Positions 1-24,604 of a stretch of 64,000 nt of DNA are shown piece after piece. The notes under the pieces were generated by a model, which saw only the letters and a list, made by a program, of their open reading frames with translations, did no database searches and was not told where the DNA came from. The stretch is from contig PLWS01000005.1 in NCBI GenBank assembly GCA_003151115.1, positions 1 to 64,000 on the forward strand, written 5' to 3'. The position numbers and the translations under genes were made by a program. The stretch comes from Vulcanimicrobiota bacterium. Its GTDB lineage: Bacteria; Vulcanimicrobiota; Vulcanimicrobiia; Vulcanimicrobiales; Vulcanimicrobiaceae. Position 1 is the first letter of the stretch. Each line of letters begins with the position of its first letter.

Positions 1-92
1 TGTAAGTTCCATCTAATGGTGAGAAAATATGAAGCAGATGGCGCCTGATTGAACACTTGGGAATGAGAAAATATACACTTTAGGTTGGGAAA
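1..92 (+). repeat. Transposon left end with three TnsB-type binding repeats
   Basis: The terminal TGTAAGTTCCA is followed by three related direct repeats: 9-28 (CCATCTAATGGTGAGAAAAT), 52-71 (AACACTTGGGAATGAGAAAA) and 74-92 (TACACTTTAGGTTGGGAAA). The shared core is roughly ACTTNNGGNTGAGAAA. The first two are separated by about 43 bp, while the second and third are adjacent. Tn7 ends carry multiple 22-bp TnsB sites, so these are read as the TnsB sites. The assignment of left and right follows the window orientation only. Confidence 0.88.
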
Positions 93-370
93 AAATGATG
101 CACCAACTTCCTTCGAGCGGATTATTGGCTAGGCGCTGCACGATCCAGCGAAAGCTGGCGAAGTTTCAAGCGCCATCGACGACTCGCGCAGCCGGCTGGC
201 CTGCGCCCACGCTTCGGCCTCCTTCAAAAGGATCGCATCGTTGGAATCACTGCATTGGCAAAAGGATGAGAAAGGCTGGCCTTTGGCTGACCGCGGTCCC
301 CTGTATTGCAAAGCGTTCTAGCGGAGTCCGCATCGGCAGCCAAAGCGCGATGGCGTATGATGACAGGGTA

Positions 371-637
371 ATGCCGAAGTTCACCGGTCTATCGCTTCAC
401 ACGCTAAACGACCGACTCGGGCGGCCGTCTGGAAAAGGGATGAGGGTAGGTTCTGGTCCTCACCGCCATGCGTTTCACATCTTTTGGTTCTGCAACGGAC
501 CAAATGGACCGGCATGCTACGCATATGCGGAGACGCGAGATAGATCGATGCCGCCAGATCTAACTCCGTGGGAACAAGAGATCTTCGACAGCGCGGGCTT
601 TCGGCGAGAGGACTGGACATTGAAGCCGTGTCCGTAA
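371..637 (+). CDS. Small hypothetical protein, 88 aa
   Basis: I do not recognise this gene. The frame stays open from 95, but the protein-like composition begins at the ATG at 371, preceded by an AGGG. The product is soluble, has no signal peptide, and carries an aromatic/Cys segment (HAFHIFWFCN) followed by a proline-acidic tail ending DWTLKPCP. It lies just inside the left end of the transposon and upstream of an antitoxin-like gene, so it is probably cargo. An earlier ATG at 350 is also possible. Coding status is moderate because no family could be assigned. Confidence 0.4.
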   Translation: MPKFTGLSLHTLNDRLGRPSGKGMRVGSGPHRHAFHIFWFCNGPNGPACYAYAETRDRSMPPDLTPWEQEIFDSAGFRREDWTLKPCP

Positions 638-857
638 CATCGCAACGTGTTCGCCGACCATGAGGAAGAACCGGATTAGCGTTGTAGCAAATGAAAGTAG
701 TCCCAGCGGACCCTGGGCTTCCGATGCGCTTTTAAGAGGCACGGCTGCCGGCGCGGTGCATCCGGCGTACGCAATCATTTCCGGACCCGTCACAATCTGT
801 TCGGCCGCCTCGCGCCGCAAACGCTTGAAACTCGGCGGCGGTTCGGCGCGCGAGTTT
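638..857. other. Intergenic stretch without a supported gene
   Basis: Between the small hypothetical gene and the antitoxin promoter no convincing gene is seen. An 83-codon open frame (660-911) reads through the promoter and the palindrome of the next gene and has no recognisable features, so it is not called. Confidence 0.5.
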
Positions 858-886
858 TTGGCGACGTATTCACTATATGGTAGTGT
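858..886 (+). promoter_or_regulatory. Promoter with palindromic operator for the ParS-type antitoxin gene
   Basis: TTGGCG (858-863) and TAGTGT (881-886) are separated by 17 bp. A palindrome CACTAtatggTAGTG (871-885) covers the -10 element. The gene start lies 29 bp downstream of the -10, with a GAGGT ribosome-binding site at about 905. Xre/MbcA/ParS antitoxins usually repress their own promoters through short inverted repeats, which fits this arrangement. Confidence 0.6.
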
Positions 887-914
887 AAAGACAGATGACC
901 ACCAGAGGTAACCA

Positions 915-1286
915 ATGGAAGCCCTAGCGCCGGTAGACGTCCGCGGCCGTGCGGCTCTGAACGTGTTCCTGAAGCTGTCGCGCAAGCTCGCCCTGAACGA
1001 TAGGGAATCCTCGAGTTTGCTCGGGGTCTCCGACCGTACGTTTCGGCGGTATCGCGACGAGCGCCGTCCGGTTAAATCGCGCGACACCCTAGAGCGGATT
1101 TCGCATATCGCAAATCTTTGGATCGCTCTGCGCTCAATCTTCCGCACTGAGACCGATGCGCAGCGCTGGCTCACCTCATCCAACAGCGCCTTCGGCGATC
1201 ATACGCCTTTGCAGCGAATGCTCGGTGGAAATGTCAGCGATTTGCTCGACGTTCGGTACCATATCGAGTCCGCGTTGGTTGCCTGA
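915..1286 (+). CDS. Xre/MbcA/ParS-type (DUF2384) antitoxin without a visible RES toxin
   Basis: The 123-aa protein has an N-terminal helix-turn-helix (about residues 25-55, with LLGVSDRTFRRYRDE) and a C-terminal DUF2384-like helical domain containing NSAFGDHTPLQRMLGG, the region that plugs RES toxin active sites in this family. Antitoxins of this type are normally followed at once by a RES-domain NADase toxin. Here the next gene converges from the other strand 38 bp away and shows no RES features. It may be an orphan antitoxin that protects against RES toxins elsewhere or acts only as a regulator. A palindrome over its own -10 supports autoregulation. Confidence 0.75.
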   Translation: MEALAPVDVRGRAALNVFLKLSRKLALNDRESSSLLGVSDRTFRRYRDERRPVKSRDTLERISHIANLWIALRSIFRTETDAQRWLTSSNSAFGDHTPLQRMLGGNVSDLLDVRYHIESALVA

Positions 1287-1324: not shown

Positions 1325-2002
1325 CTAACGAAGAAGCCAGTCGACCCAAAATATGTCAGCGCGAATCGCAGTCTCGCGCTCCCTTATGTCTCGTCTCGTG
1401 TCACGCGCTCTCGCGTAGGCAGTAGCGGGAAAATCTTCATAGCGACATAGCGATTCGAGCCTGTGATCGAAAGACTGCCATGATTTCCACGCTTCTTCAA
1501 GCGCGTTCCGCAAGTCTTCTTCTAAGGTGCAGATGGTTCGAGCTTCCGTAAGCGATGCGCTATCAACTTCCCAACCGATGAGGTTTCCCTTTATTGCAAG
1601 AGGCGCATAGACGACGAGCGCTTGGAGGCGATCAGCCCACCATGGATCGCCATAGTAGTGTTGTCGCATACACCAAAGCACCCCCACGACGTCGTCGGGA
1701 TACCCGGCGGCAAAAAGCCCAAGAAATCCGCTGCACCATTGGACTCCAGCGCGGCGAACTGATTCGAATATCTCCCAAACGATGCCAGCAGCGGGCCGAC
1801 TTTTTTCGCTCACATAGCGGCTCAAAGTGCTAAAGGCTCGCCTCGTGCTTTCGCTTTTCGTTTGGCCCCGCAGCTTGTGGATCTCCCCGTACTGCTTTGC
1901 GACCTCGTATTTTAACACGAGCCCTGTTGCCCAAAATGATTCAAGAATCGCAACAAAGAGCTCGGCCTCATGCTTCTTCGAAGGCATTTCGTTAACTACC
2001 AT
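1325..2002 (-). CDS. Hypothetical protein, 225 aa, divergent from the excisionase-like gene
   Basis: No family is recognised. The product is soluble, rich in Trp (FWATGL, WEIFES, WWADRL, DIFWVDWLL) and mostly helical in appearance, with no clear catalytic motif and no signal peptide. A second in-frame ATG at 1987 could be the true start. It shares the 2003-2150 intergenic region, which contains the 29-bp-spaced palindromes, with the HTH gene at 2151. It could therefore be co-regulated with transposition. Its place among the core transposon genes rather than the cargo suggests a role in element maintenance, but that is inference. Confidence 0.6.
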   Translation of the reverse strand: MVVNEMPSKKHEAELFVAILESFWATGLVLKYEVAKQYGEIHKLRGQTKSESTRRAFSTLSRYVSEKSRPAAGIVWEIFESVRRAGVQWCSGFLGLFAAGYPDDVVGVLWCMRQHYYGDPWWADRLQALVVYAPLAIKGNLIGWEVDSASLTEARTICTLEEDLRNALEEAWKSWQSFDHRLESLCRYEDFPATAYARARDTRRDIRERETAIRADIFWVDWLLR

Positions 2003-2387: not shown

Positions 2388-2707
2388 GATCCATCGTTTT
2401 CGCAGCAGCAGCTGGCCCCACGATTACGACGCTGCGTAAAAGAAGAAAGCCTTAAACGACTGACATCGCAAGGCTTTCGTGAGGCCGGAACCGCGTTTTC
2501 CCGACAAAGAGATGCGCGGAACCCGTATGCCTGTCCTTAGGATATCACCTGAGGGCGAGGAGGGCAATGTGCTCCCTCAAAAACGCTGGGCCCCGGCCCA
2601 GAGATTGGCTCGCCAAGAGCCAATTCCGTACGCCATTCTTACACTGTGTTGTGATGTTCAGTCCGTGCGACCATTAGTCGCGCGTGAGCCTTCTCGTGGG
2701 TGCGTGT
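2388..2707. other. 320-bp spacer between HTH gene and tnsA, rich in hairpins
   Basis: No gene is supported here. The stretch contains four hairpins: GAAAGCCTT/AAGGCTTTC (2445-2453 with 2470-2478), GAGGG/CCCTC (2560-2564 with 2574-2578), CTGGGC/GCCCAG (2586-2591 with 2596-2601) and TTGGCTC/GAGCCAA (2605-2611 with 2617-2623). None is followed by a T-run, so they are not standard terminators on the plus strand. They could be an attenuator or mRNA leader for tnsA, or a structured RNA. Confidence 0.6.
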
Positions 2708-3367
2708 ATGGCAGTTAGAGACATTCCGCCGAATCGCCGAAGTATCACCGGGCACGTCCCCAGCAAGAAAAAACCCGGTATGGTTGCCTTCGAATCGACC
2801 CTCGAGCGTGATCTGATCTTGCTTCTCGAATTTGACTCTCTCGTACGGACCGTGAGCGAACAACCGGTCCGTATTTGTTTTGAACATAACGGCAAGTCTC
2901 AGATCTATACACCGGATCTGTACATTACTTACAATGACCCAGCTTCGCGTTTGCCGATGTTTATCGAAGTCAAATACCGTCGGGATCTTTTTGAACACTG
3001 GTCCGAGCTGCATATACGTTTGCGCGCCGGCGCTCGGTATGCACGACGCAAGCGGTCGACGTTTAAGATTCTTACCGAAGTCGAGATTCGAACTGCTCGT
3101 TTGCACAGCGTGACCTGGCTCATGCCGTACCGCTCTGCGCAAGTCTCGCACAATGAAGTCGATGAAATCATAAAAACGCTCGAATTACATGGGACACTTA
3201 CGGCCGACCAGATACTCTACCATTTGCGCGATTCTGCGAACTCACGTGAGTCTCTGCTTGCCACACTCTGGCATCTAATAGCAATTGGCACATTGGAGAC
3301 GGACCTCGATTGCGAAATTACGATGTCATCTCCGATCTGGATGGCGAATCGTGCAGACAGCCGCTAA
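2708..3367 (+). CDS. tnsA: TnsA-like transposon endonuclease
   Basis: TnsA cuts the 5' ends of the transposon so that the element moves by cut and paste; it works with the TnsB transposase. The 219-aa product has the TnsA endonuclease core with FESTLERD (E29/E33), YTPDLYI (D70) and FIEVKYR (E87, K89), matching the PD-(D/E)XK catalytic pattern. A C-terminal winged-helix region follows (about residues 145-200, ILYHLRDSANSRESLLATLWHLI), as in Tn7 TnsA, where it contacts TnsC. The ATG at 2708 gives MAVRDIPPNRRS, a typical TnsA N terminus; the frame is open from 2684. Its end overlaps the tnsB start by 17 nt, so the two are probably translationally coupled. An intact TnsA implies cut-and-paste rather than replicative movement. 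Confidence 0.93.
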   Translation: MAVRDIPPNRRSITGHVPSKKKPGMVAFESTLERDLILLLEFDSLVRTVSEQPVRICFEHNGKSQIYTPDLYITYNDPASRLPMFIEVKYRRDLFEHWSELHIRLRAGARYARRKRSTFKILTEVEIRTARLHSVTWLMPYRSAQVSHNEVDEIIKTLELHGTLTADQILYHLRDSANSRESLLATLWHLIAIGTLETDLDCEITMSSPIWMANRADSR

Positions 3368-5159
3368 GCACGTAGGTGATCCGTCTCCGACCGGTGATCA
3401 TCGTGAAGCGTGTCCTCCCGCGGTTGATGAGAAATTGGCGGCAGTCGCGGGAGGCGAATCGATCCATGCCTCGTGTCCCGAGGACGCGCTACCGGACCTG
3501 ACAACGATCGATCGAGAGCGATGGGCCAAGGCTCTCGCCAGATTCGAAGCCATTAAGCCTGCTCTTGAAGCGGGTCCGCCATATTTAAAAAATTTCAAGA
3601 AGCAAGCGGCCGAGACAGAGCTCGGCGTTGCGACGCTCTACCGGTACCTTGAGCGCTACCTCGATAGCGGCGACGCCCGATCGCTATGTGACCGAATCGT
3701 TAAGACCCGTCAACCCCGACTCGATCCTAAAGTTTTGGAAATCATCAGCGACCGATTTAACAATCTGTTTATGAAAAGCCAGAAGCTAGGAATCAGCGAA
3801 ATTTGTTTTGACGTTAGATTTGCATGCTGGAAGGCTGGCTTGCCGCTGCCACATCGCAACACCGTAAGAAAGCATATCAACAAACTGAAGGCCGCTTTAG
3901 GCGGGCGCGAGTTTGAGAAACGGAGAGGAAACAAGAAGATGGCAGATGCTAAGTACACTGCGCACCAAGGAACCTTCGACAATCAGTTTGGGCCCTGGTC
4001 TCTTATACAAATCGATCACACCGTGCTGGACGTCATGGTGGTCGATGACGACCAGAGAAAAAGCATCGGGCGGCCCTATATCACGGTGGCGTTGGATACG
4101 TTCAGTCGAATGATCGTTGGGTTTTACATCTCGTTGGATCCGGTCGGAGCGCTTTCCACCGGTCTTTGCTTATATCATGCGATGCTGCCCAAGGACGAAT
4201 GGCTGAAGGATCACGGTGTGCCCACAACTTGGCCATGTATGGGTAAGCCGGCGGCGCTTCACTTCGATAATGGCAAAGAGTTTCTCGGAAAAATGGTCCG
4301 CAGGTTCTGTGAGTTGCATGACATTCGAATTGAACATCGGCCGGTGGGTCGGCCACACTACGGCGGACATATCGAGCGCGTGATAAGAACGCTAAATTCC
4401 AATCTCCACAAGATTCCCGGCTCGACATTTTCTAATGTACGGATGCGCGGCGAGTACGATTCTGAGGGAATGGCAATTATGACGCTGCACGAGTTGGGAG
4501 GCCATGTGACTGAATGGATAGCCGGCACATATCATAAGCGCATCCATACGGGTTTAGGTCGAACACCACAGTCCGTCTATGAGGAAGCGATTTTAGGAAC
4601 GCCCGATTCACGCGGCATTGGTAGGCGGGCGTCTTGGACCGATACACAGCGGCTGAGATTAGACCTGATGCCCTTTGAAGAGCGCACGATTCAGAGAAAC
4701 GGCGTCAACATAGACAAACTCGTGTACATTGGCGACGCATTAGCACCATATATCGGAACAAAAAAGGCAGACGGAGTCGCTCGGCGTTTTCTGTTTCTCC
4801 GTGATCCGCGAAGGATCAACGAGGTATATTTTTACGCACCAGACGTCAAAGAATACTATACGCTAAAATTACGCAACCCATTGCGACCCAGCATGAGCAT
4901 ATGGGAATGGAACGAGCTTCGCCGCAGACTGGCTGAAACTGGCAAAGCAGATGCCGACGAGGACGCAATATTCGAATCGTATGAAAGGCTAAAAGAGCGA
5001 GAGGCTGACGCAGCTGCTAAGACAAAGGCGATGCGTCGCCAAAAAGCTCGCCGCCTTCACCACCTGCGCGCGGTTCCGGCCGGTGAGCCGGCTGCCGAAG
5101 ATGCCGCGGATGACATGTCAGGTGAAGTTGAGCCGCTTGATGATATACGGGTCTGGTGA
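3351..5159 (+). CDS. tnsB: TnsB-like DDE transposase
   Basis: TnsB binds the repeats at the transposon ends and catalyses 3' strand breakage and joining. With a GTG start at 3351 (overlapping tnsA by 17 nt) the protein is 602 aa. The catalytic triad is visible in QIDHTVLDV (D222), LHFDNGKEF (D306) and GGHIERVIR (E342), giving the retroviral-integrase DDE spacing with a D-E gap of 36. An N-terminal HTH region lies before it (LGVATLYRYLERY) and a Mu-transposase-type C-terminal beta barrel after it, ending in a charged tail that in Tn7 TnsB contacts TnsC. The frame is open back to 3285, but an ATG there would overlap tnsA by 83 nt. All key residues are intact, so it is likely active. Confidence 0.95.
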   Translation: MQTAAKHVGDPSPTGDHREACPPAVDEKLAAVAGGESIHASCPEDALPDLTTIDRERWAKALARFEAIKPALEAGPPYLKNFKKQAAETELGVATLYRYLERYLDSGDARSLCDRIVKTRQPRLDPKVLEIISDRFNNLFMKSQKLGISEICFDVRFACWKAGLPLPHRNTVRKHINKLKAALGGREFEKRRGNKKMADAKYTAHQGTFDNQFGPWSLIQIDHTVLDVMVVDDDQRKSIGRPYITVALDTFSRMIVGFYISLDPVGALSTGLCLYHAMLPKDEWLKDHGVPTTWPCMGKPAALHFDNGKEFLGKMVRRFCELHDIRIEHRPVGRPHYGGHIERVIRTLNSNLHKIPGSTFSNVRMRGEYDSEGMAIMTLHELGGHVTEWIAGTYHKRIHTGLGRTPQSVYEEAILGTPDSRGIGRRASWTDTQRLRLDLMPFEERTIQRNGVNIDKLVYIGDALAPYIGTKKADGVARRFLFLRDPRRINEVYFYAPDVKEYYTLKLRNPLRPSMSIWEWNELRRRLAETGKADADEDAIFESYERLKEREADAAAKTKAMRRQKARRLHHLRAVPAGEPAAEDAADDMSGEVEPLDDIRVW

Positions 5160-6022
5160 CAGATTTCGATCTTAGTCATCTTGATCCTCAAGTGGCGCAA
5201 TGGGCGCTTTGCGATAATGCAACCCGCATTAATATGGTGAGGCGACGGCTTTGGATCCCAACAAAACACACCAAACGCCTAATGCGTAAACTCGAGTATC
5301 TTTGGTCATTTCCACCAATGAAGAATATGCCGAATCTGCTTATCGTTGGCGACTCCGGGGCCGGCAAGACAAGCCTGATTGAGGAGCTATTGCATCTTCA
5401 TCCACGCTACGAAAGTCCGGATCAAGAAAAGTCTATAATTCCAATTGTGTATTGCGAGGCGCCGCCAGATCCAGATCTCGGTGGCTTCTATAACGAGATA
5501 CTTTTTGGTATGGGACTACCGCCGTCCAAAGGCCGCGTGGATGCACGACGGCATCACGTTCAGGAGATGCTCATACTGGTCGAGGCGCGCCTGCTAGTCA
5601 TTGATGAAGTTCACCACGGCCTGCACTCGGGTCCGCAAACGCGCAGGGTATACCTAAACGCAATAAAGAGTTTAGGAAACCATGTAGGCGTTCCGATCGT
5701 GGCGGTTGGAATACGAGAGGCTCTCGTGCTTTTCGCATACGATCCACAAATCAAACGAAGGTTCGAGAAGGACGAACTGCCGGCATTGAAGTGTGATAAT
5801 GAATTTCGGCGAGTCCTGGTTAGTCTCGAACGGCTAACCGTGCTGCGCAAAGCATCGTTTTTGGGCGAGGTATCGATGGCACGCCGCTTATACGACATGT
5901 CGAAGGGCACCATGGGAAAACTTGCGAGAGTTGTCGCGGCCGCAGCGGCAAAGGCCATCGAGACCGGTGAGGAGCGCATCTCTTACCCGATACTCGACGC
6001 GGTTGAGACATCGGAGATTTAA
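5156..6022 (+). CDS. tnsC: TnsC/TniB-type AAA+ transposition regulator
   Basis: TnsC is an ATP-dependent regulator that links the target-site protein (TniQ/TnsD) to the transposase. The 288-aa product has Walker A (GDSGAGKT, residues 65-72), Walker B (LLVIDEVHHG, 146-154) and an AAA+ sensor region around VAVGIRE. Its size is that of the compact TniB/TnsC type rather than the longer Tn7 TnsC. The GTG start overlaps the tnsB stop as GTGA, a sign of translational coupling. IPIVYCEAPPDPDLGGFYNEIL is typical of TniB proteins. Confidence 0.93.
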   Translation: MTDFDLSHLDPQVAQWALCDNATRINMVRRRLWIPTKHTKRLMRKLEYLWSFPPMKNMPNLLIVGDSGAGKTSLIEELLHLHPRYESPDQEKSIIPIVYCEAPPDPDLGGFYNEILFGMGLPPSKGRVDARRHHVQEMLILVEARLLVIDEVHHGLHSGPQTRRVYLNAIKSLGNHVGVPIVAVGIREALVLFAYDPQIKRRFEKDELPALKCDNEFRRVLVSLERLTVLRKASFLGEVSMARRLYDMSKGTMGKLARVVAAAAAKAIETGEERISYPILDAVETSEI

Positions 6023-7256
6023 GATCGAGGCAGCGAGCGTCGGTAAAGCCGGTCCGCATTCGGAGGCCCGTGGGCTTTTGCTCGGGCATACGGCGCCTCG
6101 CGATGAGGAGCTCTTGTCTTCCTGGGTCGTTCGTCTTGCGGCGCAGAATGCGCTAAAACTACACACATTTTCGCAAATGATGTGGCCGGCCGTGCCGATT
6201 TGGAACCGCGACATCGACAATTCAGCAACCGATGACGTGCTTGCAACACTGGCGCTGCGCACTGGGGTAGCACCGGATCGAGTGCGGGAGACAACTCTGC
6301 AGTCCTATGAAGGCCGTCTCTTCGAAAAACATAATCCGCGTGGCAGCACCGTATGGTTGTTGCCCCTTGGGATTTATCATCGGACGCGGCTCAGATCCGG
6401 AACGCAGTTTTGCCCGGATTGTCTGGCATACGAGACTCCGTACTATCGAAAATCATGGCGGCTAGCACTATCAGTCGTATGCCTTGTCCACAATCGCCCA
6501 TTGGTTGATCGTTGCGCTTGTGACGCGCCGATAAATTTTCATCGTGGTGATCTGGGAGACGTGGGTGCGTTTCAAGCCGCAAGCAGCATGACGGTGTGCT
6601 ATCGCTGCGGATTCGATCTGCGTAAATGCGGCGGTTCGTCGTTCACTTTGCCGCTGCTCTGCGCCGCTCTAGAAACCCAAAGCCGATCCAATGAAGCGTT
6701 GGCAAAAGGTTACATTCGCCTTGCTGACGGCTCAACCGTGCATTCGAATTTATTTTTTGCTGGATTCCGCCAGCTCTTACAAATCTTGTCCCATGGAAGA
6801 CTCGCTGCAAGTCTAAGGGATTCGACTGCAAAGTGGAGGCGGCTTCCTGCTTACGCGCCGTCCTTCAATGGCCGTATCAGCGCAATCGAAAAGCTGCCGG
6901 TGCATGATCGCACAGTTCTCATAGCCATGGCGGGCGGGTGGTTAAATGATTGGCCACAGACATTTGTGAAGGATTGCAAAACGGCGGGCCTGACAGCAAC
7001 TGACATCTGTCGGAACCTAACGCGCGTACCATATTGGCTCGCCAGGGTCGTTGCAGAGCACTTTGGCCAAGGAACTTATAGTCCAAGCTTGCCCGAGATC
7101 GGCGCGGCCATCAACTACCTGCGTACGCAGAACATTGTGCCAACGAAATCAGCAGTCTCTCAAATACTTGGTAGGACGGACGTCTTTCGGAAACGTCGAC
7201 TCCATCATTTATTGGAAAGTGAAGTCGGGCTGTTCGGTGATGACGGAAGCAATTAG
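6003..7256 (+). CDS. tniQ: TniQ/TnsD-family target selector, first copy
   Basis: TniQ-family proteins choose the target site, either by binding DNA directly (TnsD) or through a CRISPR complex. This one carries the family signature DEELLSSWVVRLAAQNAL near the N terminus and a zinc-ribbon block: FCPDCLAYETPYYRKSWRL, VCLVHNRPLVDRC, then VCYRCGFDLRKC. The C terminus holds a helical DNA-binding region. The start is uncertain: no ATG is available, and candidates are TTG at 6003 (20-nt overlap with tnsC), TTG at 6078 and TTG at 5922. The product is roughly 390-417 aa, closer to the shorter TniQ than to full-length Tn7 TnsD. With no CRISPR-Cas nearby, this or the next gene should recognise comM. Confidence 0.88.
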   Translation: MRHRRFKIEAASVGKAGPHSEARGLLLGHTAPRDEELLSSWVVRLAAQNALKLHTFSQMMWPAVPIWNRDIDNSATDDVLATLALRTGVAPDRVRETTLQSYEGRLFEKHNPRGSTVWLLPLGIYHRTRLRSGTQFCPDCLAYETPYYRKSWRLALSVVCLVHNRPLVDRCACDAPINFHRGDLGDVGAFQAASSMTVCYRCGFDLRKCGGSSFTLPLLCAALETQSRSNEALAKGYIRLADGSTVHSNLFFAGFRQLLQILSHGRLAASLRDSTAKWRRLPAYAPSFNGRISAIEKLPVHDRTVLIAMAGGWLNDWPQTFVKDCKTAGLTATDICRNLTRVPYWLARVVAEHFGQGTYSPSLPEIGAAINYLRTQNIVPTKSAVSQILGRTDVFRKRRLHHLLESEVGLFGDDGSN

Positions 7257-8451
7257 AGCAGAAGTTGGTTACCCTAGGCTGCTGCCGTGCCATCCCAAGC
7301 CGCGCCCGGACGAATTGCTCAGTTCGTGGATTGTTCGAACCGCTGCTGCGAACCGAATCGCCTTCGATTCGCTGCCACTAGGTGGTCGATTTTTTAAAAT
7401 TCGCGATGCAGATGTCAATCTAAGTGGTAAGACGCTAGAATGCTTGTCAAAAAGTACCGGAATTTCATCCGATCGCATCCGCCAGCTTTCTCTAATGTCC
7501 TTTAGGGGAGTCCTTTTCGAAAACAATCCCCCGAATGCTGCGCTTCCACCATGGATTCTTCCCATTAGGACTAAGGGGTTCTGTGGTGTGCAATGTTGTC
7601 CGCAATGTTTACTGGAAAGCCCATATTATCGTAAAGTTTGGCGTCTCGCCTTTGCAGTGATGTGTACGAAGCATAAGTGTCGCTTGGTGGATGCGTGCAA
7701 TGCGTGCGGTAGGCCCGTCGCATATCACAAAGGAGCGGGCCTACTCGGCTTTCATTCAAAACCAGTAACGCGCTGTCGACATTGCGCGACATCCTACACC
7801 GATTGCAGAGTGGAGGCAGTTGCGCTCGATGATGACGCGCTCAAGCTTCAGGACTGCCTGGAGTCGATATTCGAGCGAGGTTCGATAACGCTGTGTGGAG
7901 TTTCGCTGTCGGCGCTCAGTTTTTTTGAAGGCTTGAGAATTCTGGGGCGAATGCTGCTGCGGCGTCCAAGGGGCTTGGCCTTGCGGCGTGCCGTGCGGAG
8001 CGGAATTGAGGATCTCTCCGTGGATCGCGCGACCCACGCTCGAATCGAGTTTCTGAGCAACGCTGACCGTTTAATTGTGATGCGCTGTCTCGCGGCTTTA
8101 TTATTGGAGTGGCCGTCGAATTTTCTGCGTGCCTGCCGTTCGGCTAATATTACGTTAGGCGCTGATCTCGGTCGGTCGAAATTTCGTCGGAACAATGCAG
8201 CCTGGATTTTCGAAGCAGCTCGGGCGTTGACTCGGCCGGGATGCAGTAAAAATGGCGCACGATATTCCAAAGAGTTTCGTGTTCAAATTGTAGCACTTGC
8301 ACGATCTGGCAGAAGTGTCTCGAGCCTAGCTCGGGAATTCGGAATTGGAAAGTGCACAATTCTACGCTGGCTGTCGAAGGTAGAAAACGACACTGGAAGC
8401 TCTAAAGTCGCATCGTGCAATAAAATCTTCGTAGACCCTATGGCGGCATAA
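7240..8451 (+). CDS. tniQ: TniQ/TnsD-family protein fused to an IS3-type helix-turn-helix
   Basis: The ATG at 7240 overlaps tniQ1 by 17 nt and gives a 403-aa protein. It has the same signature (DELLSSWIVRTAAAN) and zinc-ribbon block (CCPQCLLESPYYRKVWRL, MCTKHKCRLVDACNACG, RCRHCATSYTDC) as tniQ1. Unlike tniQ1 it ends with about 50 residues resembling the IS3-family OrfA HTH: RYSKEFRVQIVALARSGRSV, then SSLAREFGIGKCTILRWLSK. This gives it an extra DNA-binding module. Two TniQ proteins in one element also occur in type I-B CRISPR-associated transposons, where one directs chromosomal insertion. Here one may handle comM and the other mobile-plasmid or other targets; the division of labour is inference. 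Confidence 0.88.
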   Translation: MTEAIRAEVGYPRLLPCHPKPRPDELLSSWIVRTAAANRIAFDSLPLGGRFFKIRDADVNLSGKTLECLSKSTGISSDRIRQLSLMSFRGVLFENNPPNAALPPWILPIRTKGFCGVQCCPQCLLESPYYRKVWRLAFAVMCTKHKCRLVDACNACGRPVAYHKGAGLLGFHSKPVTRCRHCATSYTDCRVEAVALDDDALKLQDCLESIFERGSITLCGVSLSALSFFEGLRILGRMLLRRPRGLALRRAVRSGIEDLSVDRATHARIEFLSNADRLIVMRCLAALLLEWPSNFLRACRSANITLGADLGRSKFRRNNAAWIFEAARALTRPGCSKNGARYSKEFRVQIVALARSGRSVSSLAREFGIGKCTILRWLSKVENDTGSSKVASCNKIFVDPMAA

Positions 8452-9087: not shown

Positions 9088-12078
9088 CTAGGTGGTCAAG
9101 AAGGGCAAAAGCAATTGCGCCGTCTCATTTGGCAGGTAAGTAGCGAGCATGGCTGGGCTTGAGCGCAGCAGGGCATCCACAGTTAGTACTCCGGCCGATC
9201 GCAACGATAAGTATGCCGCTCGGTTCAGCGGCACTGGCGAATGTATCAAATCGAGGGTATCAGCGGGAATGCCAAGTTCGATTCGCAGCAACAGCCGCTG
9301 CATGTCGTCCGGCTCGGGGGCAAAGGCAGGGTAGGCCACGCTGACGATCTCGTAGATGGTGTGCAACCTAAACCGCGTGTTGTCGACGGTGCTGGCGATA
9401 TCACCGGCCGTTACCGCGAAAAAAACGCGGTTGGTTGTAAAATCCGCCTCAATGCGCTCAATCGGAACGCCGTTAGCATAACTGAGCACGATCAATGCCC
9501 TTTTCGCGCGACCTAGCATGCTTGCTGAATCGGGCGCACCCTGCTGGAAGCGAGTAACGATGTCGTTGCCGAATCGGCGAGCAGCCTCATAAGGCCACTT
9601 GCTCTCGGATGCACCTTTTTTCTGGAGCGGAATATAGGTGTCCGACTCTGGGACCGTCTGCGTGAGCGCCATTAATTGTTCCGGAGTCAGAGTTCGGTTC
9701 AGGGTACGCACCGAGCTCAAAATGCTAATACACGATTCCAACGAAATGTTTGCTTGGCCGCATGCTTTACCGAGTGCTGTCAACGCGACTCCAGTGGCAT
9801 CTTCATCAATCAAGCCCTCTTGCTGCATGCGCGCGAGAAGTGACGTGATGGAACTCCGAATGTTTTCGAGAAACTGAGGGTCGCGTAGAGATGCTACGTA
9901 TCCCCCGAACGAGTTCAGAAGAAGACTCGGAACTTCCGCGCGCGGTATACGATGGATTTGCCGCAGAAGTCGGATGATCCACGTTGCAACGTGGCTTGAT
10001 TCGAAGGTGGAGTGTAGCGCCGGCGGTACGCCTAAGACATACTGGTCTACAAGAGCGGTGCGACGCCAAGGTGTGTCGGCGATGATGTATGCTCTGCCGG
10101 TTTCTTGGTACCCGTATCGACCCGCTCTCCCTGCCATGTTGCGAACGTCGCCCGGGGACATGGCTTCCTTAGCCGGGCCCGCCCAAATTGTCTCTCCGAT
10201 TATTACGGCGGAGGCCGGGGTATTGATGCCGGCAGCGATCCCGGAGGTTGCAGCTATTGCGCGAATTGACCCTCGTCGGAAGGCGCGTTCGACTGTCAGT
10301 CTTTCTTCGCGATTCAAATCCGACGTGTGAAAAGCGGTGCCGCCCGTCAGCGTGGTTCTGAGTTCAGGCGAGACACTTGAAAGATCCGCTCGAGGAAGTG
10401 CTGCTATCGGTTCATGTGCCGCTGGTAGTCCCAGTTCGGTCGCAAGATATCCAGCACATCCCTTAGCGCCGCCTCGCGTGTTGCGAAATATGATTACGCT
10501 CGTGTTATCGCCTTGGAGCAATTTTCTAGTTAGTGGGACGATCACATCTTGAGCACTGGGTTTTTGACGCCGCTGCACGATCTCGCGAGCGTCTAGAACT
10601 TGCTCGGTCTTGCGATTTCCGTTCGCGTCTACGAATTCGTACGTTCCGTTGCGGTCGATAGCCCCGAATGCCAAAGGGACCGGCCTGGTTTCAGAAACGA
10701 GCGTATCTAAGCTGAGCCAATCAGCAAACTGTTGCACGTTGCCGACGACGGCGGAGAGCAGTAAGAGTTGCGGATTAATCCCCGCTGCTCGCTTTGCTCG
10801 CAGCAGTGTTAGGATAAGTTCCACGTTTATGCCCCGTGATGAGTCTGAAATGAACTGCGCTTCATCGAGAACTACAAGCCCGATCACATTTAAGAGAGGC
10901 TCGTTTGTAAGCGCAGTGCTCAGAAACATCTCATACGTGAGGATGGCAATATCGAACTTACCCGTTACAAACTGCGCGATGTCGTCGTGATGGTCCCCTG
11001 TGCACCGGATCACTCGCATGCCGAGACGGTCCCCGTAAAATGATTTGAAGTCGTCGTATTTCTCGTTCACGAGCGCCTTAAACGGCAAAAGAAAAACGGC
11101 GCGCCTTCTATCGAGAATCGCTTTTACGGCGGCCATTTCCCCGATAAATGTCTTCCCCGAACTTGTTGGGGCGATGACAAATAACGATCTGGCGTCTAGC
11201 ACGCGCCTTTCGTTGACGGCATCAATCTGCATCTGATGGAGATGATCGTTAAACCGATCCCGCCATGCGGCGACAATTTCGTTCGGAATACCAAATTGCT
11301 CCAAATCCGAGACGGTCGCGACGCAGATTGCCCCGTATTCTGGAAACGCTTTGGCGTATTCTGCTCCCTTGACTAGTCTCGGGAGAGTAAAGCCGCCGTC
11401 AATGTAGGTGGTCGCGACGGGGTTTTGAGTAATTCCTATAGATGCCGCATCGGTGCGAACCCTAGCTATCACGCGGTCTATCATTGATAGTACGCCAACT
11501 GTTTGCTCGTCAGTGAGAGCATCGATTATCGCGCCCGTCAGGAAACCGTGACGTCTGGACGGGTCTTCGTATGCAACCTCGTCCGGCCTACAGGCCGTGA
11601 TTAGCAGTCGGCCTTCGCCTGATATTCCAGAGATATCCACGATACTCCGACTTGTCGGCGTGTCTTTGATTACGCGAGCCGGAGCTTCACCGGAGAAACA
11701 GCAGTCAATAATGCAAAAAATAAACTTTGCTTTCGATGAGCGGAATAGGCTGACTATGTCGCTCAATTGTATCGCCGTGGTATCAAGGGCGTGTACATCG
11801 GTGTCGTGAGCTACAATTCTATGGTCATGCGTCCCATGCGTGGCTATAGAAACGATTATCGCATCGTCTTCATTAGAGTTTTCGAACGCATCGGCTAAGA
11901 TTTGCCGAATGTGTGCGTGTGATGCGCAGTCATTTAGAAGAAGCGTCGCATCTATACTAGGTATCCCATCCCTGAAGATGGCGTTTAGAGCAGTGGCATC
12001 GCGCACCGCGCCGCTCAGGCTAGGAGCGGCGGGATCCTGAAACTCATCGATTCCTATGAACCATCCGCGTATGCGCAT
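9088..12078 (-). CDS. Caspase-like protease fused to a Ski2-like superfamily 2 helicase
   Basis: The 996-aa protein has an N-terminal caspase/metacaspase domain (about residues 1-235) with the catalytic His in SIATHGTHD (H81) and the catalytic Cys in IIDCCFSG (C127). A complete SF2 helicase follows: Walker A APTSSGKT (303-310), motif II VVLDEAQ (402-408), and NMAGRAGRYG as motif VI, then a winged-helix/helical C-terminal part as in Ski2/Brr2/Hel308 proteins. There is no signal peptide, so it acts in the cytoplasm. The helicase probably senses nucleic acid and the protease is the effector, which is the logic of abortive-infection systems. It is the largest cargo gene and lies 63 bp before the small gene at 8533-9012. 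All catalytic residues appear intact. The pathway is inference. Confidence 0.9.
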   Translation of the reverse strand: MRIRGWFIGIDEFQDPAAPSLSGAVRDATALNAIFRDGIPSIDATLLLNDCASHAHIRQILADAFENSNEDDAIIVSIATHGTHDHRIVAHDTDVHALDTTAIQLSDIVSLFRSSKAKFIFCIIDCCFSGEAPARVIKDTPTSRSIVDISGISGEGRLLITACRPDEVAYEDPSRRHGFLTGAIIDALTDEQTVGVLSMIDRVIARVRTDAASIGITQNPVATTYIDGGFTLPRLVKGAEYAKAFPEYGAICVATVSDLEQFGIPNEIVAAWRDRFNDHLHQMQIDAVNERRVLDARSLFVIAPTSSGKTFIGEMAAVKAILDRRRAVFLLPFKALVNEKYDDFKSFYGDRLGMRVIRCTGDHHDDIAQFVTGKFDIAILTYEMFLSTALTNEPLLNVIGLVVLDEAQFISDSSRGINVELILTLLRAKRAAGINPQLLLLSAVVGNVQQFADWLSLDTLVSETRPVPLAFGAIDRNGTYEFVDANGNRKTEQVLDAREIVQRRQKPSAQDVIVPLTRKLLQGDNTSVIIFRNTRGGAKGCAGYLATELGLPAAHEPIAALPRADLSSVSPELRTTLTGGTAFHTSDLNREERLTVERAFRRGSIRAIAATSGIAAGINTPASAVIIGETIWAGPAKEAMSPGDVRNMAGRAGRYGYQETGRAYIIADTPWRRTALVDQYVLGVPPALHSTFESSHVATWIIRLLRQIHRIPRAEVPSLLLNSFGGYVASLRDPQFLENIRSSITSLLARMQQEGLIDEDATGVALTALGKACGQANISLESCISILSSVRTLNRTLTPEQLMALTQTVPESDTYIPLQKKGASESKWPYEAARRFGNDIVTRFQQGAPDSASMLGRAKRALIVLSYANGVPIERIEADFTTNRVFFAVTAGDIASTVDNTRFRLHTIYEIVSVAYPAFAPEPDDMQRLLLRIELGIPADTLDLIHSPVPLNRAAYLSLRSAGVLTVDALLRSSPAMLATYLPNETAQLLLPFLTT

Positions 12079-13315: not shown

Positions 13316-16036
13316 ATGAATCCAACCGAAATTGAATTCGCCATCAAAGCGCTGGTCACGCAACCATATGATCCGGCAACGTTCGCCTTCGACCTCATCG
13401 CGATCTACAACGCGCCAAAGGTCACGGTCAGTAAACTCAAGAGTGGACAAACGAACGCAGCCGCGACCCCCGGTGACGTTCTCTGGAAGAAAAAACTGTT
13501 CTTCCGGTCAGCCGCTCCTACGGACGACGTCGCTGCCATCGCAGACCGCCTCATCGCCGATCCGCTAACGGCAAAGCACAAGCCACGGTTCATCCTCGTC
13601 ACCAACGGCGAGCAACTCCATATCCGCGATCTCTCGCGCGACGAAACCTGCAACACCGAGTTTGAACTGCTCGATGAGTCCTCGGACTTTCTTTTGCCGC
13701 TGGCGGGCTTCGAGCGGCGTGATGCCATTACCGAAAATCCCGCTGATGTAAAGGCAGCAAAACGACTCGCGAAGCTCTATGCCGCGATCCTCGCGGCCAA
13801 TCCGACATGGAGCGACGGCAACCACACGCACGAACTCAACCTCTTCATGACGCGTGTGCTCTTCTGCTTCTATGCGGAAGATACAGGCATATTCGATAGT
13901 CCGCAGCTCTTCACGAACACCTTTGTGCAGCACACGCACGAGAGCGGCGCTGACGTCGCACCGCTGCTCGATCGGCTGTTCGCCGTCATGAACCTCAAGG
14001 ACGACGAACGACCTGCGACGACCTCCGTCGCAAACGCTCGCTTTCCGTACGTTAACGGCAGCCTCTTCGAAACAACGCTGCCGATTCCAAACTTCAACCG
14101 TACCGCCCGCCGGCTCTTCCTCGAATGCGGCGAACTCGATTGGCGAACGATTAACCCCGACATCTTCGGGTCAATGATCCAAACGATCGTCCAACCTGGC
14201 GCACGCGGCGACCTTGGCATGCATTACACGAGCGTGCCCAACATCATGAAGGTGCTCCGGCCGCTCTTTCTCGATGACCTCAACGATACGTACGAGAAAG
14301 CTAAAGATAGTCCCCAGAAGCTCGAAGCCTTGCGTGCACGGCTTGTAAAGATCCGCGTCTTCGATCCCGCGTGTGGTTCCGGAAACTTTCTCATTATCGC
14401 CTACAAAGAACTGCGTCAACTTGAAATGCGGATTCTTGGCCGTATAAGTGAACTCGCGACGAATAATCCTCTTCGACTATCTGGGATCTCACTGCACAAC
14501 TTTTTCGGAATAGACACCGTGGACTTTGCGTGTGAGACCGCCAAGTTGTCGCTGTGGATCGCGGAGTATCAAATGAACGCTGCGTTTAAAGATCTCTTCG
14601 GGACGGCGCGTCCACCGCTGCCACTGGGAAAGATCACAACGATTCACAACGGCAACGCGCTGCGCCTAGATTGGTGCGAGGTCTGCCCTAAGGACGATAG
14701 CGCCGAGACATATATTTGTGGCAATCCGCCCTATATCGGCAGCGCCGTTCAAACGACGCAACAACAAGACGACGTCGCGCGCGCCTGTCAGCTAGTAGCG
14801 ATCGAATCAAGGGAACTTGACTACATCTCGGGCTGGTTCGCGAAGGGAGCGTCATATATCGCGTCGAGCGTCGCCTCAATGGCGTTCGTAACCACGAATT
14901 CCCTTTGTCAAGGACTGCAAGTAGCGTTACTCTGGCCCCCGCTGTTTAGTCTCAATCTAGAGATCTACTTTGCCTACGAGTCCTTCAAATGGAGCAATAA
15001 CGCATCAAACAACGCCGGCGTTACGTGCACGATCATTGGCTTGAGAAATGCCAGCGCTGCGCAAAAACAGTTCTTTGGCGCAAATCACATTCGCACCGTG
15101 AGTGAGATCAGCCCTTATCTCATCCCTTTTAAGACGCTGATCGTTAACGAAGCATCAAGCCCACTTAGCCGCGGTCTCCCATCAATGTCTCCTGGTAATC
15201 AGCCTCGGGACGGTGGGCACTTTATGCTTAGTCGAGCTGAAAGGACGGAGCTTCTGCGAAGCCATCCGGACAGCGAGCCATTCCTGAGAGACTATCGCGG
15301 GTCTAAGGAATTCATCCAAGGTATAGATCGGTCATGTATCTGGGTTACCGATGCTACGCTATCGGAAGCGCTCACAATTCCGCCGATTCGTACAAGAATT
15401 GACGCGGTTCGTCGTGATCGTCTGACGCGAGGACCGAATATAAAACAGTCAGCGCACTATGCTCACCGCTTCCGTCATGTAACTCATCAGGACGCGCTGG
15501 CATTGCTTATTCCAAAGGTCGTCTCAGAACGACGACACTACCTTCCCGTTGGCGTGTTCGACGAAAGCACAATAATCAGCGAACAGGCATTTGCTGTATA
15601 CGATCCACCTTCTCACCTTCTCGCCATACTTTCGTCGCAACTCCACGTGATTTGGACAAAAGCAGTCAGCGGCAAACTAGAAAACCGCTTAAGGTACTCC
15701 AACGCACTGGTCTATAATACGTTCCCGGTTCCCGATCTCTCCGACGAGCAGAAGCGCGTCCTCGCCGACCACTCAAAGGCCATCCTTAAGGCCCGCGCTA
15801 AGCATCCCGGCAAGACAATCGCGTGGCTTTACAATCCAGAAACGATGCCAGCGAATCTTCTCGAAGCACACGGGGAAAACGATGCCTACCTCGAGGAATA
15901 CGTCTACGGACGCAAATTTAAAGACGATACCCAACGTCTTGAGCATCTTTTCGCCATGTACGCTACGATGAAGACGAAGGAACAAACACCGCTCCTTGCG
16001 ATAAAAGCGTCTGAACGGAAGAAAGCTCGCGTGTAA
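13316..16036 (+). CDS. MmeI-like adenine-specific DNA methyltransferase lacking a visible nuclease motif
   Basis: The 906-aa protein has the layout of MmeI-type methyltransferases: an N-terminal domain, a helical spacer with VLFCFYAEDTGIF (about residue 181), motif I FDPACGSGNFL (349-359), motif IV NPPYIG (470-475) typical of N6-adenine methylation, and a target-recognition region after it. MmeI enzymes carry a D-ExK nuclease near the N terminus; here that part reads FILVTNGEQL and no ExK is seen, so it is probably methylation only. The stop overlaps the start of the helicase gene by one base (TAATG), and the GIY-YIG gene follows. Restriction would then be supplied by those partners. Confidence 0.9.
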   Translation: MNPTEIEFAIKALVTQPYDPATFAFDLIAIYNAPKVTVSKLKSGQTNAAATPGDVLWKKKLFFRSAAPTDDVAAIADRLIADPLTAKHKPRFILVTNGEQLHIRDLSRDETCNTEFELLDESSDFLLPLAGFERRDAITENPADVKAAKRLAKLYAAILAANPTWSDGNHTHELNLFMTRVLFCFYAEDTGIFDSPQLFTNTFVQHTHESGADVAPLLDRLFAVMNLKDDERPATTSVANARFPYVNGSLFETTLPIPNFNRTARRLFLECGELDWRTINPDIFGSMIQTIVQPGARGDLGMHYTSVPNIMKVLRPLFLDDLNDTYEKAKDSPQKLEALRARLVKIRVFDPACGSGNFLIIAYKELRQLEMRILGRISELATNNPLRLSGISLHNFFGIDTVDFACETAKLSLWIAEYQMNAAFKDLFGTARPPLPLGKITTIHNGNALRLDWCEVCPKDDSAETYICGNPPYIGSAVQTTQQQDDVARACQLVAIESRELDYISGWFAKGASYIASSVASMAFVTTNSLCQGLQVALLWPPLFSLNLEIYFAYESFKWSNNASNNAGVTCTIIGLRNASAAQKQFFGANHIRTVSEISPYLIPFKTLIVNEASSPLSRGLPSMSPGNQPRDGGHFMLSRAERTELLRSHPDSEPFLRDYRGSKEFIQGIDRSCIWVTDATLSEALTIPPIRTRIDAVRRDRLTRGPNIKQSAHYAHRFRHVTHQDALALLIPKVVSERRHYLPVGVFDESTIISEQAFAVYDPPSHLLAILSSQLHVIWTKAVSGKLENRLRYSNALVYNTFPVPDLSDEQKRVLADHSKAILKARAKHPGKTIAWLYNPETMPANLLEAHGENDAYLEEYVYGRKFKDDTQRLEHLFAMYATMKTKEQTPLLAIKASERKKARV

Positions 16037-18018
16037 TGCCTAATCTTATAACGCACATCTGCGGTACGCGCGCCACGACGCTTAACGCCATGGGAATGCG
16101 TGAAATGCAATCCCGCGCCTACGATGCTCGCAACGCGCAATATCTTCTGATCAAATCACCGCCGGCATCGGGTAAATCTCGTGCGCTCATGTACATTGGG
16201 CTTGACAAAATTACCAACCAGGGACTAAAAAAAGTCATCGTTGCCGTGCCGGAGCGTTCAATCGGCAACTCGTTCAAGACCACAATCCTTAAGCCGTCAG
16301 GGTTCTTCGCCGATTGGCTCGTACCGCCAAAGTACAACCTCACGACCGCAGGTGGAGGCCAGAAAACCGAGGCGGTTGCCGAGTTCCTCGGTTCGCAAGA
16401 ATCGATCCTGGTTTGCACGCACGCGACGCTACGCTTTGCGTACGAAAAACTTGGTGCCGCCGCGTTTGCGGATTGCGTCATCGCCATTGACGAGTTCCAC
16501 CACACCTCTGCCGATGTCGGATCGAAGCTCGGCGAGCTCGTTCGCGGCCTTATTGCTGACGGACGCCCTCATGTCGTTGCGATGACCGGATCTTACTTTC
16601 GCGGTGACACTTACCCGGTGCTGCGCCCGGAAGACGAGAACCGCTTCGCGCGTGTTACGTACACATATTACGAGCAGCTGGCCACGTATGAATACCTTAA
16701 AACTCTCGGTATCGGCTATCATTTCTATAGCGGTTCCTACCTCGACGCTATCGGCGAAATCTTCGATACCACTAAGAAGACGATCGTCCACATCCCCAGT
16801 GTCAACTCCGCCGAAACGCCAATGGAAAAAACGCTCCAGGTTGATACGATCCTTGACCACATTTCAGGCGGCGACGCCAGCCGAGTCAATCGCGACGAGG
16901 CCACCGGCTTCTACCATGTGGAGTGCCCCGATGGACGCTTGCTGAAAGTCGCCGACCTCGTCGACGACAGCCCATACCGCGAGCAGGTTCTCGAGAGCCT
17001 GCGCCGCGTCGAGGCTCGCGAAGACCTAGACCTGATCATCGCTCTCGGTATGGCCAAAGAAGGCTTCGATTGGATTTGGTGTGAGCACGTGCTCACTGTC
17101 GGCTACCGCAATTCCATGACTGAAATTATTCAGATCATCGGTCGGGCCACACGCGACGCCGAGGGCAAGACGCATGCACAGTTCACGAATCTCGTCGCAG
17201 AGCCAATCGACGATCGCGCCGTAGTGACGGATGCGGTCAACAATATGCTCAAGGCGATCTCGTGTTCGCTCATCATGGAACAGGTGCTCGCGCCTAACTT
17301 CAATTTTCAAACCCGCGTTCCCAACGGCCCACCGCCAGGTGTTCCCGGTCCCGGTGTCCCAATTCAGATTCGCGGACTTCAAGAACCCTCGACTGACCGC
17401 GTGCGCGAGATCGTGCAAGACCAGCTCGACGAGTTGAAAATCCACGTACTCAACGACCAGCACATACAGACGGCGATCGTGCATCCCGATGCCTTCACTC
17501 CGGCCGAAATCAACACCGTTCTCATACCACGCGTTATCGAGCGCACATACCCCGACCTCACGGCGGATCAAACCAACGAAATCCGCCATGCGCTATTGCT
17601 TGACTTCAACTTCAAAAGCGCTGTCGCGCCGGAACCGGGTGATCCTGAATCTGTCACATCAGACAACCTCGAGACGCGCCGCGAGGGCGAGAACGTCCTG
17701 ATCAAACTCGCCAGGAAGTTTGTGAATCTCGACGAGCTATCGATTGATCTGATCGACAGCATCAATCCGTTCGAACACGCCTACGAAATTTTGGCGAAGA
17801 CCCTCGATGAACGGGTGTTGCGCACGATCCACAGCACGGTCGTCGCCGGCCGCCTTCCCATGAACGATGAAGAGGCGGCAATGTTGTGGCCGTCGATCAA
17901 GGCATTCGTGAAGAGCCGTCAGCGAGAACCAAATCTCAACGCGCAAGATCCACGCGAACAGCGGCTCGCGCACGCCCTCGCGATTATCCGTGCTGCCAGA
18001 CGAGCTGTTATCGCGTGA
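16036..18018 (+). CDS. Superfamily 2 DEAD/DEAH-type helicase of the methyltransferase operon
   Basis: The 660-aa protein shows Walker A SPPASGKS (41-48), motif II IDEFHH (151-156, a DEFH box), motif III VAMTGSY, and QIIGRATRD as motif VI. The arrangement is that of the SF2 translocases found in restriction systems (type III Res-like or DISARM-type), not RecQ- or Ski2-like. It overlaps the methyltransferase by one base and the GIY-YIG nuclease by four, so the three proteins should be made in fixed ratio. A Gly-Pro-rich linker (PNGPPPGVPGPGVP) separates the helicase core from a C-terminal domain of about 230 residues without a known match, which may hold the nuclease or DNA-sensing part. Confidence 0.9.
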   Translation: MPNLITHICGTRATTLNAMGMREMQSRAYDARNAQYLLIKSPPASGKSRALMYIGLDKITNQGLKKVIVAVPERSIGNSFKTTILKPSGFFADWLVPPKYNLTTAGGGQKTEAVAEFLGSQESILVCTHATLRFAYEKLGAAAFADCVIAIDEFHHTSADVGSKLGELVRGLIADGRPHVVAMTGSYFRGDTYPVLRPEDENRFARVTYTYYEQLATYEYLKTLGIGYHFYSGSYLDAIGEIFDTTKKTIVHIPSVNSAETPMEKTLQVDTILDHISGGDASRVNRDEATGFYHVECPDGRLLKVADLVDDSPYREQVLESLRRVEAREDLDLIIALGMAKEGFDWIWCEHVLTVGYRNSMTEIIQIIGRATRDAEGKTHAQFTNLVAEPIDDRAVVTDAVNNMLKAISCSLIMEQVLAPNFNFQTRVPNGPPPGVPGPGVPIQIRGLQEPSTDRVREIVQDQLDELKIHVLNDQHIQTAIVHPDAFTPAEINTVLIPRVIERTYPDLTADQTNEIRHALLLDFNFKSAVAPEPGDPESVTSDNLETRREGENVLIKLARKFVNLDELSIDLIDSINPFEHAYEILAKTLDERVLRTIHSTVVAGRLPMNDEEAAMLWPSIKAFVKSRQREPNLNAQDPREQRLAHALAIIRAARRAVIA

Positions 18019-23667: not shown

Positions 23668-23734
23668 ATTCTCATTATTAGGTGTAATTTTCTCATCCTT
23701 AAGTGTAATTTCTCACCTCTAAGTGGAACTTACA
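23668..23734 (-). repeat. Transposon right end with three tightly packed TnsB-type repeats
   Basis: Read on the minus strand, the end starts TGTAAGTTCCACTTAGAGG and continues with three abutting repeats (plus coordinates about 23710-23734, 23689-23709 and 23669-23687) with the core ACTTAAGGATGAGAAA. The spacing is close to 21 bp throughout, unlike the left end where one site is displaced. That asymmetry is what Tn7-family ends show and probably defines end polarity. Confidence 0.88.
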
Positions 23735-24604
23735 CCTCCTCCGACCAGCGCGGTCTGGCTGATCGTGTGGTGCGGAAAACGGAACGGCCGCGCGCGCACG
23801 ATGCCCGGACGCGATCCTAGTAAACCGGCGACGCTGTAAATCTTCGTCACTTCGAGCGCTTCGTTCGACGTCATCGGCGGAAGTATCGAAGGCAGGCGCC
23901 GGGCGAGCATTGTCTTCCCGCAACCGGGCGGTCCGAGCAGCAACAAGTTGTGTCCGCCCGCCGCCGCGATCTCCAGCGCGCGTTTCGCGCCGGCTTGGCC
24001 TTTGACGTCGGCAAAATCGCCGTACAGCACTTCGTCGAGCGGTGAAACGGCCGGCGCGCTCGTATGCGTGCGCCACTTCGATCCGTTCCCGGCGATTGCC
24101 GACCACGCGTCTTGCAGCGAATCTACCGCGAAGAGATCGATGCCCTCGACAAGCGCGGCTTCTTCGGCGTTCAAGCGCGGCACGACAATCTTCGTGAACC
24201 CCGCGTTGCGCGCGCCGAGCACCATCGGAAGGATGCCGGCGACGGGCTGCAGCGATCCGTTCAGCCCGAGCTCTCCTAGCGTTACGAAGTTTTGCAGCGC
24301 GAGGCGGTCGATCTGTTCGTCCATGGCGAGCAGCGCCAACGCGATCGAAAGATCGAACGCCGGCCCTTCCTTACGCACGTCTGGGCACGTCTGCCGGCGA
24401 AAGATTGATCAGCAGCCGCCCCGCCGGATACATAAACCCAGAATTGAAAATCGCGCTGCGTACGCGTTCGCGCGCTTCATTTAAAGCGCGGTCGGGCAGT
24501 CCGATGATCGCAAGCGCGGGCGTTCCGGGCGAGCTGTCGGCTTCGACGCGTACCACATAGCCGTCGATGCCGAGCATCGCAGCCGAAAACGCAAGTGAGA
24601 GCAC
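23735..24604 (-). pseudogene. comM: comM (yifB) Mg-chelatase-like ATPase, 5' half, interrupted and frameshifted
   Basis: ComM is an AAA+ helicase that promotes branch migration during natural transformation. The first 70 or so residues (MLSLAFSAAMLGIDGY, RERVRSAIFNSGF, NLSPADV) are in one frame (24604 to about 24380), and the continuation (RKEGPAFDLSIALALLA through Walker A LLGPPGCGKT to PHHTISQTALVGGG) is in another. The break is a 10-bp duplication. The frame then stops at the transposon end, right after the conserved GGG that precedes the ATPase core. The 3' half must lie before base 1. The gene is dead by insertion and by frameshift. Tn6022/AbaR elements in Acinetobacter also enter comM. 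Confidence 0.93.
24375..24393. repeat. 10-bp tandem duplication causing a frameshift in comM
   Basis: GCACGTCTG occurs at 24375-24383 and again at 24385-24393, so one 10-bp unit is duplicated. Removing one unit joins NLSPADV directly to RKEGPAFDL, the expected ComM sequence. Confidence 0.85.

Follow-up and report, generated by a model that had tools for sequence, protein, structure and literature searches.

In characterised relatives of the transposon described here, recruitment of TnsC is the work of the TniQ core, and target reading falls to the C-terminal portion of the protein or to a partner (PMC11406308, PMC10293859). New targets are gained via acquired DNA-binding domains, usually with one TniQ per pathway (reviewed in PMC11406308), and elements with two TniQ-family proteins are common, accounting for 998 of the loci in one survey (PMC10293859). 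Both TniQ proteins whose C-terminal DNA-binding domains vary and elements with a TniQ pair are thus on record (PMC10293859, PMC11406308). What is new here is a variant with a helix-turn-helix (HTH) of the IS3 OrfA type, for which a limited search of the open literature found no report at a TniQ C-terminus.

A TniQ pair in a Tn7-like element within comM

The window (the whole stretch of DNA analysed, 64,000 nucleotides) begins with a complete Tn7-like transposon of 23.7 kb (window 1-23734), lying within comM and accompanied by 5-bp target duplications. Its first base is base 1 of the window, its ends carry inverted terminal TGT...ACA with repeated sites, and one operon encodes TnsA, TnsB, TnsC and two TniQ proteins, TniQ1 and TniQ2. 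A related element, found in another genus of the same family (genome G035), serves as comparison throughout. The features are as follows:

1..98, + strand: left end, terminal TGTAAGTTCCA with repeated TGAGAAA-type sites (putative TnsB sites); matches the inverted right end
1325..2002, - strand: divergent ORF, 225 aa, no Pfam match; conserved in the G035 element (33% identity)
2684..3367, + strand: TnsA-like endonuclease (PF08722, 1.2e-13; PF08721, 4.8e-5)
3285..5159, + strand: TnsB-like DDE transposase, start codon uncertain (rve, Mu-transpos_C)
5156..6022, + strand: TnsC/TniB AAA+ ATPase (PF05621, 7.5e-49)
6003..7256, + strand: TniQ1, proposed comM selector, start uncertain, TTG 6003 likeliest (Pfam, tree, identity to G035)
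6951..7223, + strand: native C-terminal tail of TniQ1 (tail profile, E 3.5e-30; AlphaFold2 model)
7240..8451, + strand: TniQ2, the protein under study (intact frame, Pfam, tree, AlphaFold2 model)
7285..7686, + strand: TniQ domain of TniQ2, residues 16-149, zinc ligands kept (Pfam, E 1.1e-20)
8245..8400, + strand: IS3 OrfA-type HTH of TniQ2, residues 336-387 (Pfam, OrfA profile, AlphaFold2, structure comparison)
23669..23734, - strand: right end, TGTAAGTTCCA with TGAGAA-type repeats; mirrors the left end
23735..23739, - strand: target-site duplication, GGAGG on the comM strand (end comparison)
23735..24589, - strand: comM 5' part, interrupted; the 3' part is on contig C1 (L108)

This draft assembly breaks at the left end of the element. 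On contig C1 (L108, C1 216663-219886) the 3' half of comM flanks this left end, and the last 1062 bases of C1 are 100% identical to window 1-1062, the start of contig C4. Contig C4 begins exactly at the first base of the transposon and the assembly fork sits precisely at the transposon end; the fork may reflect a second genomic context of the element in the sample. Since the 5' half of comM contains a further frameshift near 24380, the gene is probably decaying after the insertion.

The element resembles the Tn6022/AbaR family (TnsABC-TniQ-TnsF; PMC10293859) in its TnsABC and TniQ operon, in its short target duplication and in its insertion at about the same place of comM, upstream of the Walker B codons. 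It differs in lacking a detectable TnsF, which is the comM selector of Tn6022 (PMC10293859), in carrying a second TniQ 3' of the first, and in that no TnsE was identified. TnsE sequences are strongly divergent (PMC10293859) and the TnsE of Tn6022 lies on the opposite strand. The divergent ORF of the window (1325-2002, -), upstream of tnsA, has no Pfam match; its counterpart in the G035 element is L017:4992-5750 (-), and none was found in the other loci searched.

Dual TniQ-TnsD elements (type I-B and I-D CASTs, Tn7017; PMC10293859, PMC11406308) also carry a duplicated TniQ pair with differing C-terminal parts, and the two TniQ-family genes are adjacent in the window element as well. It differs from them in that no CRISPR-Cas was found, both TniQ proteins are about 400 aa long, and the second bears the IS3 OrfA-type HTH. 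The parallel with type I-B CAST that had been drawn from the paired TniQ proteins holds for the pairing but not for CRISPR: no direct repeats of at least 18 bases lie within 200 bases of each other and no cas families occur among the scanned proteins, so it is an analogy only. By its target this Tn7-like element stands close to the Tn6022 group, but no TnsF was detected in it; it is not a CAST.

In G035 the insertion follows the same comM codons (...ALVGGG), some 20 codons ahead of the Walker B VLFLDE, and GGCGG is duplicated. Identity between the two elements is 55% for TnsA, 56% for TnsB (54% over the whole alignment), 55% for TnsC and 60% for TniQ1 over its whole length, but 36% for TniQ2, as expected for a changing selector, and the TniQ2 alignment stops before the tail. 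In the tree the TniQ1 proteins of both elements are sisters (100/100) and so are the TniQ2 proteins (97/88), TniQ2 forming a long branch; the group nearest to TniQ1 and TniQ2 comprises L062, L055 and L063, each with a single native-tailed TniQ, the deeper branch being moderately supported. Relatives were gathered with a TnsB alignment, which yielded 80 loci, and none in viral contigs.

The C-terminal HTH of TniQ2 and the native tail of its relatives

The TniQ2 frame is intact from the ATG at 7240 to the stop at 8449-8451 (403 residues), it shares its first 17 bases with the end of TniQ1, and it retains all zinc ligands of the TniQ core. The original prediction held that this second TniQ ends in about 50 residues resembling the HTH of IS3 OrfA, and profile search bears it out: HTH_Tnp_1 matches residues 340-388 with E 4.6e-8 (33.6 bits against a Pfam cut-off of 24.1), HTH_28 of Pfam is likewise above cut-off, and the tail searched alone gives E 3.4e-9. 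By these profile matches the transposase-type HTH of TniQ2 is confirmed, well past chance. Structure prediction agrees, AlphaFold2 placing three helices at residues 344-355, 360-367 and 371-385; with pLDDT of about 65-79, confidence in this model is moderate. The modelled HTH aligns with TnpE of Shigella (2rn7, solved by NMR) at 31% identity and Z 5.4, a modest score.

A domain of about 50 residues is what TniQ2 shares with OrfA of the IS3 family (IS911 OrfA, PMC2909936; Shigella TnpE, 2rn7), and a truncated IS911 transposase that includes the related HTH binds IS911 ends (PMC2909936). In TniQ2, however, the HTH is fused to TniQ, and orfB frameshift and DDE domain are missing. The leucine zipper of OrfA dimerisation is absent too, the match to an OrfA profile reaching only to residue 387 and leaving 16 residues up to the stop, and no transposase orfB or other transposase ORF follows 3' of TniQ2.

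As to the kin of this HTH, the best NCBIfam matches were IS66 TnpA (9e-7) and an IS3 transposase (9e-4), both far below the whole-protein cut-offs. We dropped IS66 TnpA as donor after direct comparison with phylum-mates, in which the best locus of the IS66 set reached E 4e-5 against E 2e-11 for the nearest sequences, IS3-type OrfA proteins with up to 51% identity over 45 residues; several of the matching short OrfA proteins are followed by a DDE orfB. This comparison favours IS3 OrfA. The OrfA profile was built from eight OrfA proteins of phylum-mates and matches residues 336-387 of TniQ2 with 43 bits, with no other meaningful score among 109 distinct TniQ proteins. Its score is somewhat circular, because the OrfA set was first found by likeness to the TniQ2 tail; the Pfam match is not circular. 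Within the genome itself, no candidate for a recent IS3 donor scored better than E 0.07. Third-position G+C is 38% in the HTH segment and 52% in the core, over 50 codons only.

The HTH had been described as an addition grafted onto TniQ, and here our results differ. In TniQ1 and in many relatives this place is taken by a different C-terminal domain, also helical, with the pattern PYW...EI.AAI.YL....T...V...LG, and in the AlphaFold2 models the small tail helices of TniQ1 (332-342, 351-363, 370-377 and 386-396 of the predicted chain) occupy the slot equivalent to the TniQ2 HTH. As judged from these tails, the HTH is a replacement of the native tail, not an addition to it. The G035 TniQ2 retains the older native tail, and its element is without the IS3-type HTH: a native-tail profile built without this protein detects its tail with E 1.8e-8 over columns 1-77, and the same profile matches only 16 columns of the window TniQ2, at the core edge. 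None of the frames downstream of TniQ2 contains a remnant of the native tail, nor was a frameshift found. One Pseudomonas plasmid match (H1, residues 19-377) seemed to reach the HTH, but it carries the native tail and not an IS3-type HTH. The simplest history that joins the tree and the tails would be a TniQ duplication predating the split of the window and G035 elements, followed by a change of tail in the window lineage.

Nor is the HTH common to all TniQ proteins of the group. It is absent from TniQ1, from G035 TniQ2 and from the other TniQ proteins examined; for 47 TniQ proteins the absence of HTH_Tnp_1 rests on the OrfA profile, 25 of the 39 matched families being among the matches listed. 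Other TniQ proteins examined have XRE, CI or TetR-type HTH matches (among the matches listed). TniQ2 is comparable to the TniQ proteins with XRE, CI and AcrR domains (Fig. 4, PMC11406308) in its N-terminal TniQ core and C-terminal HTH, and differs from them in that its HTH is transposase OrfA-like, unseen in the other TniQ proteins examined. No close relatives of TniQ2 were found in the genome and viral contigs. As the HTH version occurs in one of the 109 distinct TniQ proteins and in one genome, nothing shows selection keeping it.

Selection of comM and the role of TniQ2

The G035 element sits in the same place of comM without the IS3-type HTH, as does that of L062, which has a single native-tailed TniQ and no detectable TnsF; the HTH is thus not the comM finder. 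A TnsF profile gave nothing significant among the window ORFs or in L017, the locus that contains the tns operon of the G035 element. With no TnsF detected, and with single native-tailed TniQ proteins of the L062 type in comM, TniQ1 is, on this comparison, the best candidate for comM homing, leaving TniQ2 for a second route.

From these computational observations we lean, on balance, towards TniQ2 being a duplicated second target selector whose C-terminal domain was swapped for an IS3 OrfA-related HTH, giving the element a second target route. The TniQ2 gene would have been born from a TniQ duplication and, in the window lineage, its C-terminal domain, usually the part contacting target DNA in the TniQ family, would have been exchanged at the core/tail boundary, about residue 306. 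The N-terminal TniQ/zinc-finger core would, from family knowledge, recruit TnsC and TnsAB; TniQ1, with its ancestral tail, would steer the standing comM insertion, and the new HTH of TniQ2 would bind another DNA sequence and so open the second route. Points that weigh against this reading are that all we saw in this genome was the comM insertion and none elsewhere, that a single genome carries the HTH version, that the HTH model is of moderate confidence, that the OrfA profile is somewhat circular and that the OrfA leucine zipper is absent. A more specific version, in which TniQ2 recognises the terminal repeats of IS3-type elements, so that insertion sequences, frequent on mobile DNA, serve the element as landing sites in horizontal spread and the safe comM site is left to TniQ1, seems to us a long shot.

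Joint action of TniQ1 and TniQ2 at comM is a serious rival, although we consider it rather unlikely. Both proteins would then form a heteromeric comM selector in which TniQ2 is a structural dimer partner and the HTH a non-specific or auxiliary DNA contact. Both dual-TniQ elements lie at the same comM codons despite their different TniQ2 tails, solved I-F3 TniQ complexes contain two monomers each (by the names of the structure entries), and the Tn6022 relative requires TnsF beside TniQ for comM (PMC10293859), so that in dual-TniQ elements without detectable TnsF the place of TnsF could be taken by TniQ2. However, L062 and other relatives, each with a single TniQ and without detectable TnsF, also lie in comM, and TniQ2 diverges much faster than TniQ1, unlike a partner in a fixed complex. 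TniQ2 could also be a redundant, weakly constrained copy without targeting role, whose tail was changed by chance insertion of, or recombination with, an IS3 element; the long branch, the tails differing between sister elements and the single occurrence of the HTH version are consistent with it. We find this improbable, since the frame is intact with every zinc ligand of the core in place, the gene is kept in both elements, whose TnsABC and TniQ1 are 55-60% identical, and the HTH is well formed rather than random, with no transposase orfB downstream. That the ancestral tail merely drifted towards likeness with a transposase HTH, with no exchange of domains, is hardly credible: like the HTH, the ancestral tail is small and helical and fills this slot, and one of 51 proteins gives a marginal KfrA_N match, but the native-tail profile fails to reach the HTH, and the IS3 OrfA profile that matches it does not match other TniQ proteins.

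The two elements provide a polarised case of target-selector evolution, with sister elements at the same site, a conserved TniQ1 and one exchanged TniQ2 tail. The proposed modularity of TniQ becomes testable by one short domain swap, and the locus suggests a natural junction, at about residue 306, where TniQ tails may be exchangeable. Tail exchange would be a rare yet understandable way for elements to try new landing sites. Moreover, comM is shown to be occupied by Tn7-like elements without detectable TnsF.

Other occupants of comM and the cargo of the element

Many related Tn7-like elements of Pseudomonadota and Bacteroidota adjoin comM at the same position without detectable TnsF (L062, L041, L050, L058, L046, L059, L049, L047, L060, L048, L065 and L067). 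Targeting of comM in the absence of a recognisable TnsF thus appears widespread. In a genome of the same genus (G002:C4, about 17-56 kb; L183, L184), comM is interrupted at about residue 197 by an insert of roughly 39 kb. That genome yielded no TniQ, and the Tn7-like elements use a different site in comM; the insert may therefore be a mobile element of another kind that uses comM.

The cargo of the window element includes, at 9088-12078 (-), a protein that combines a caspase-like domain at its N terminus with a DEAD-box helicase related to HamB (Hachiman-type) proteins and that by its domains looks like the product of a defence gene. Further cargo at 13316-19256 encodes an MmeI-type IIG restriction-modification enzyme, a DEAD helicase and a PDC-S57-like protein.
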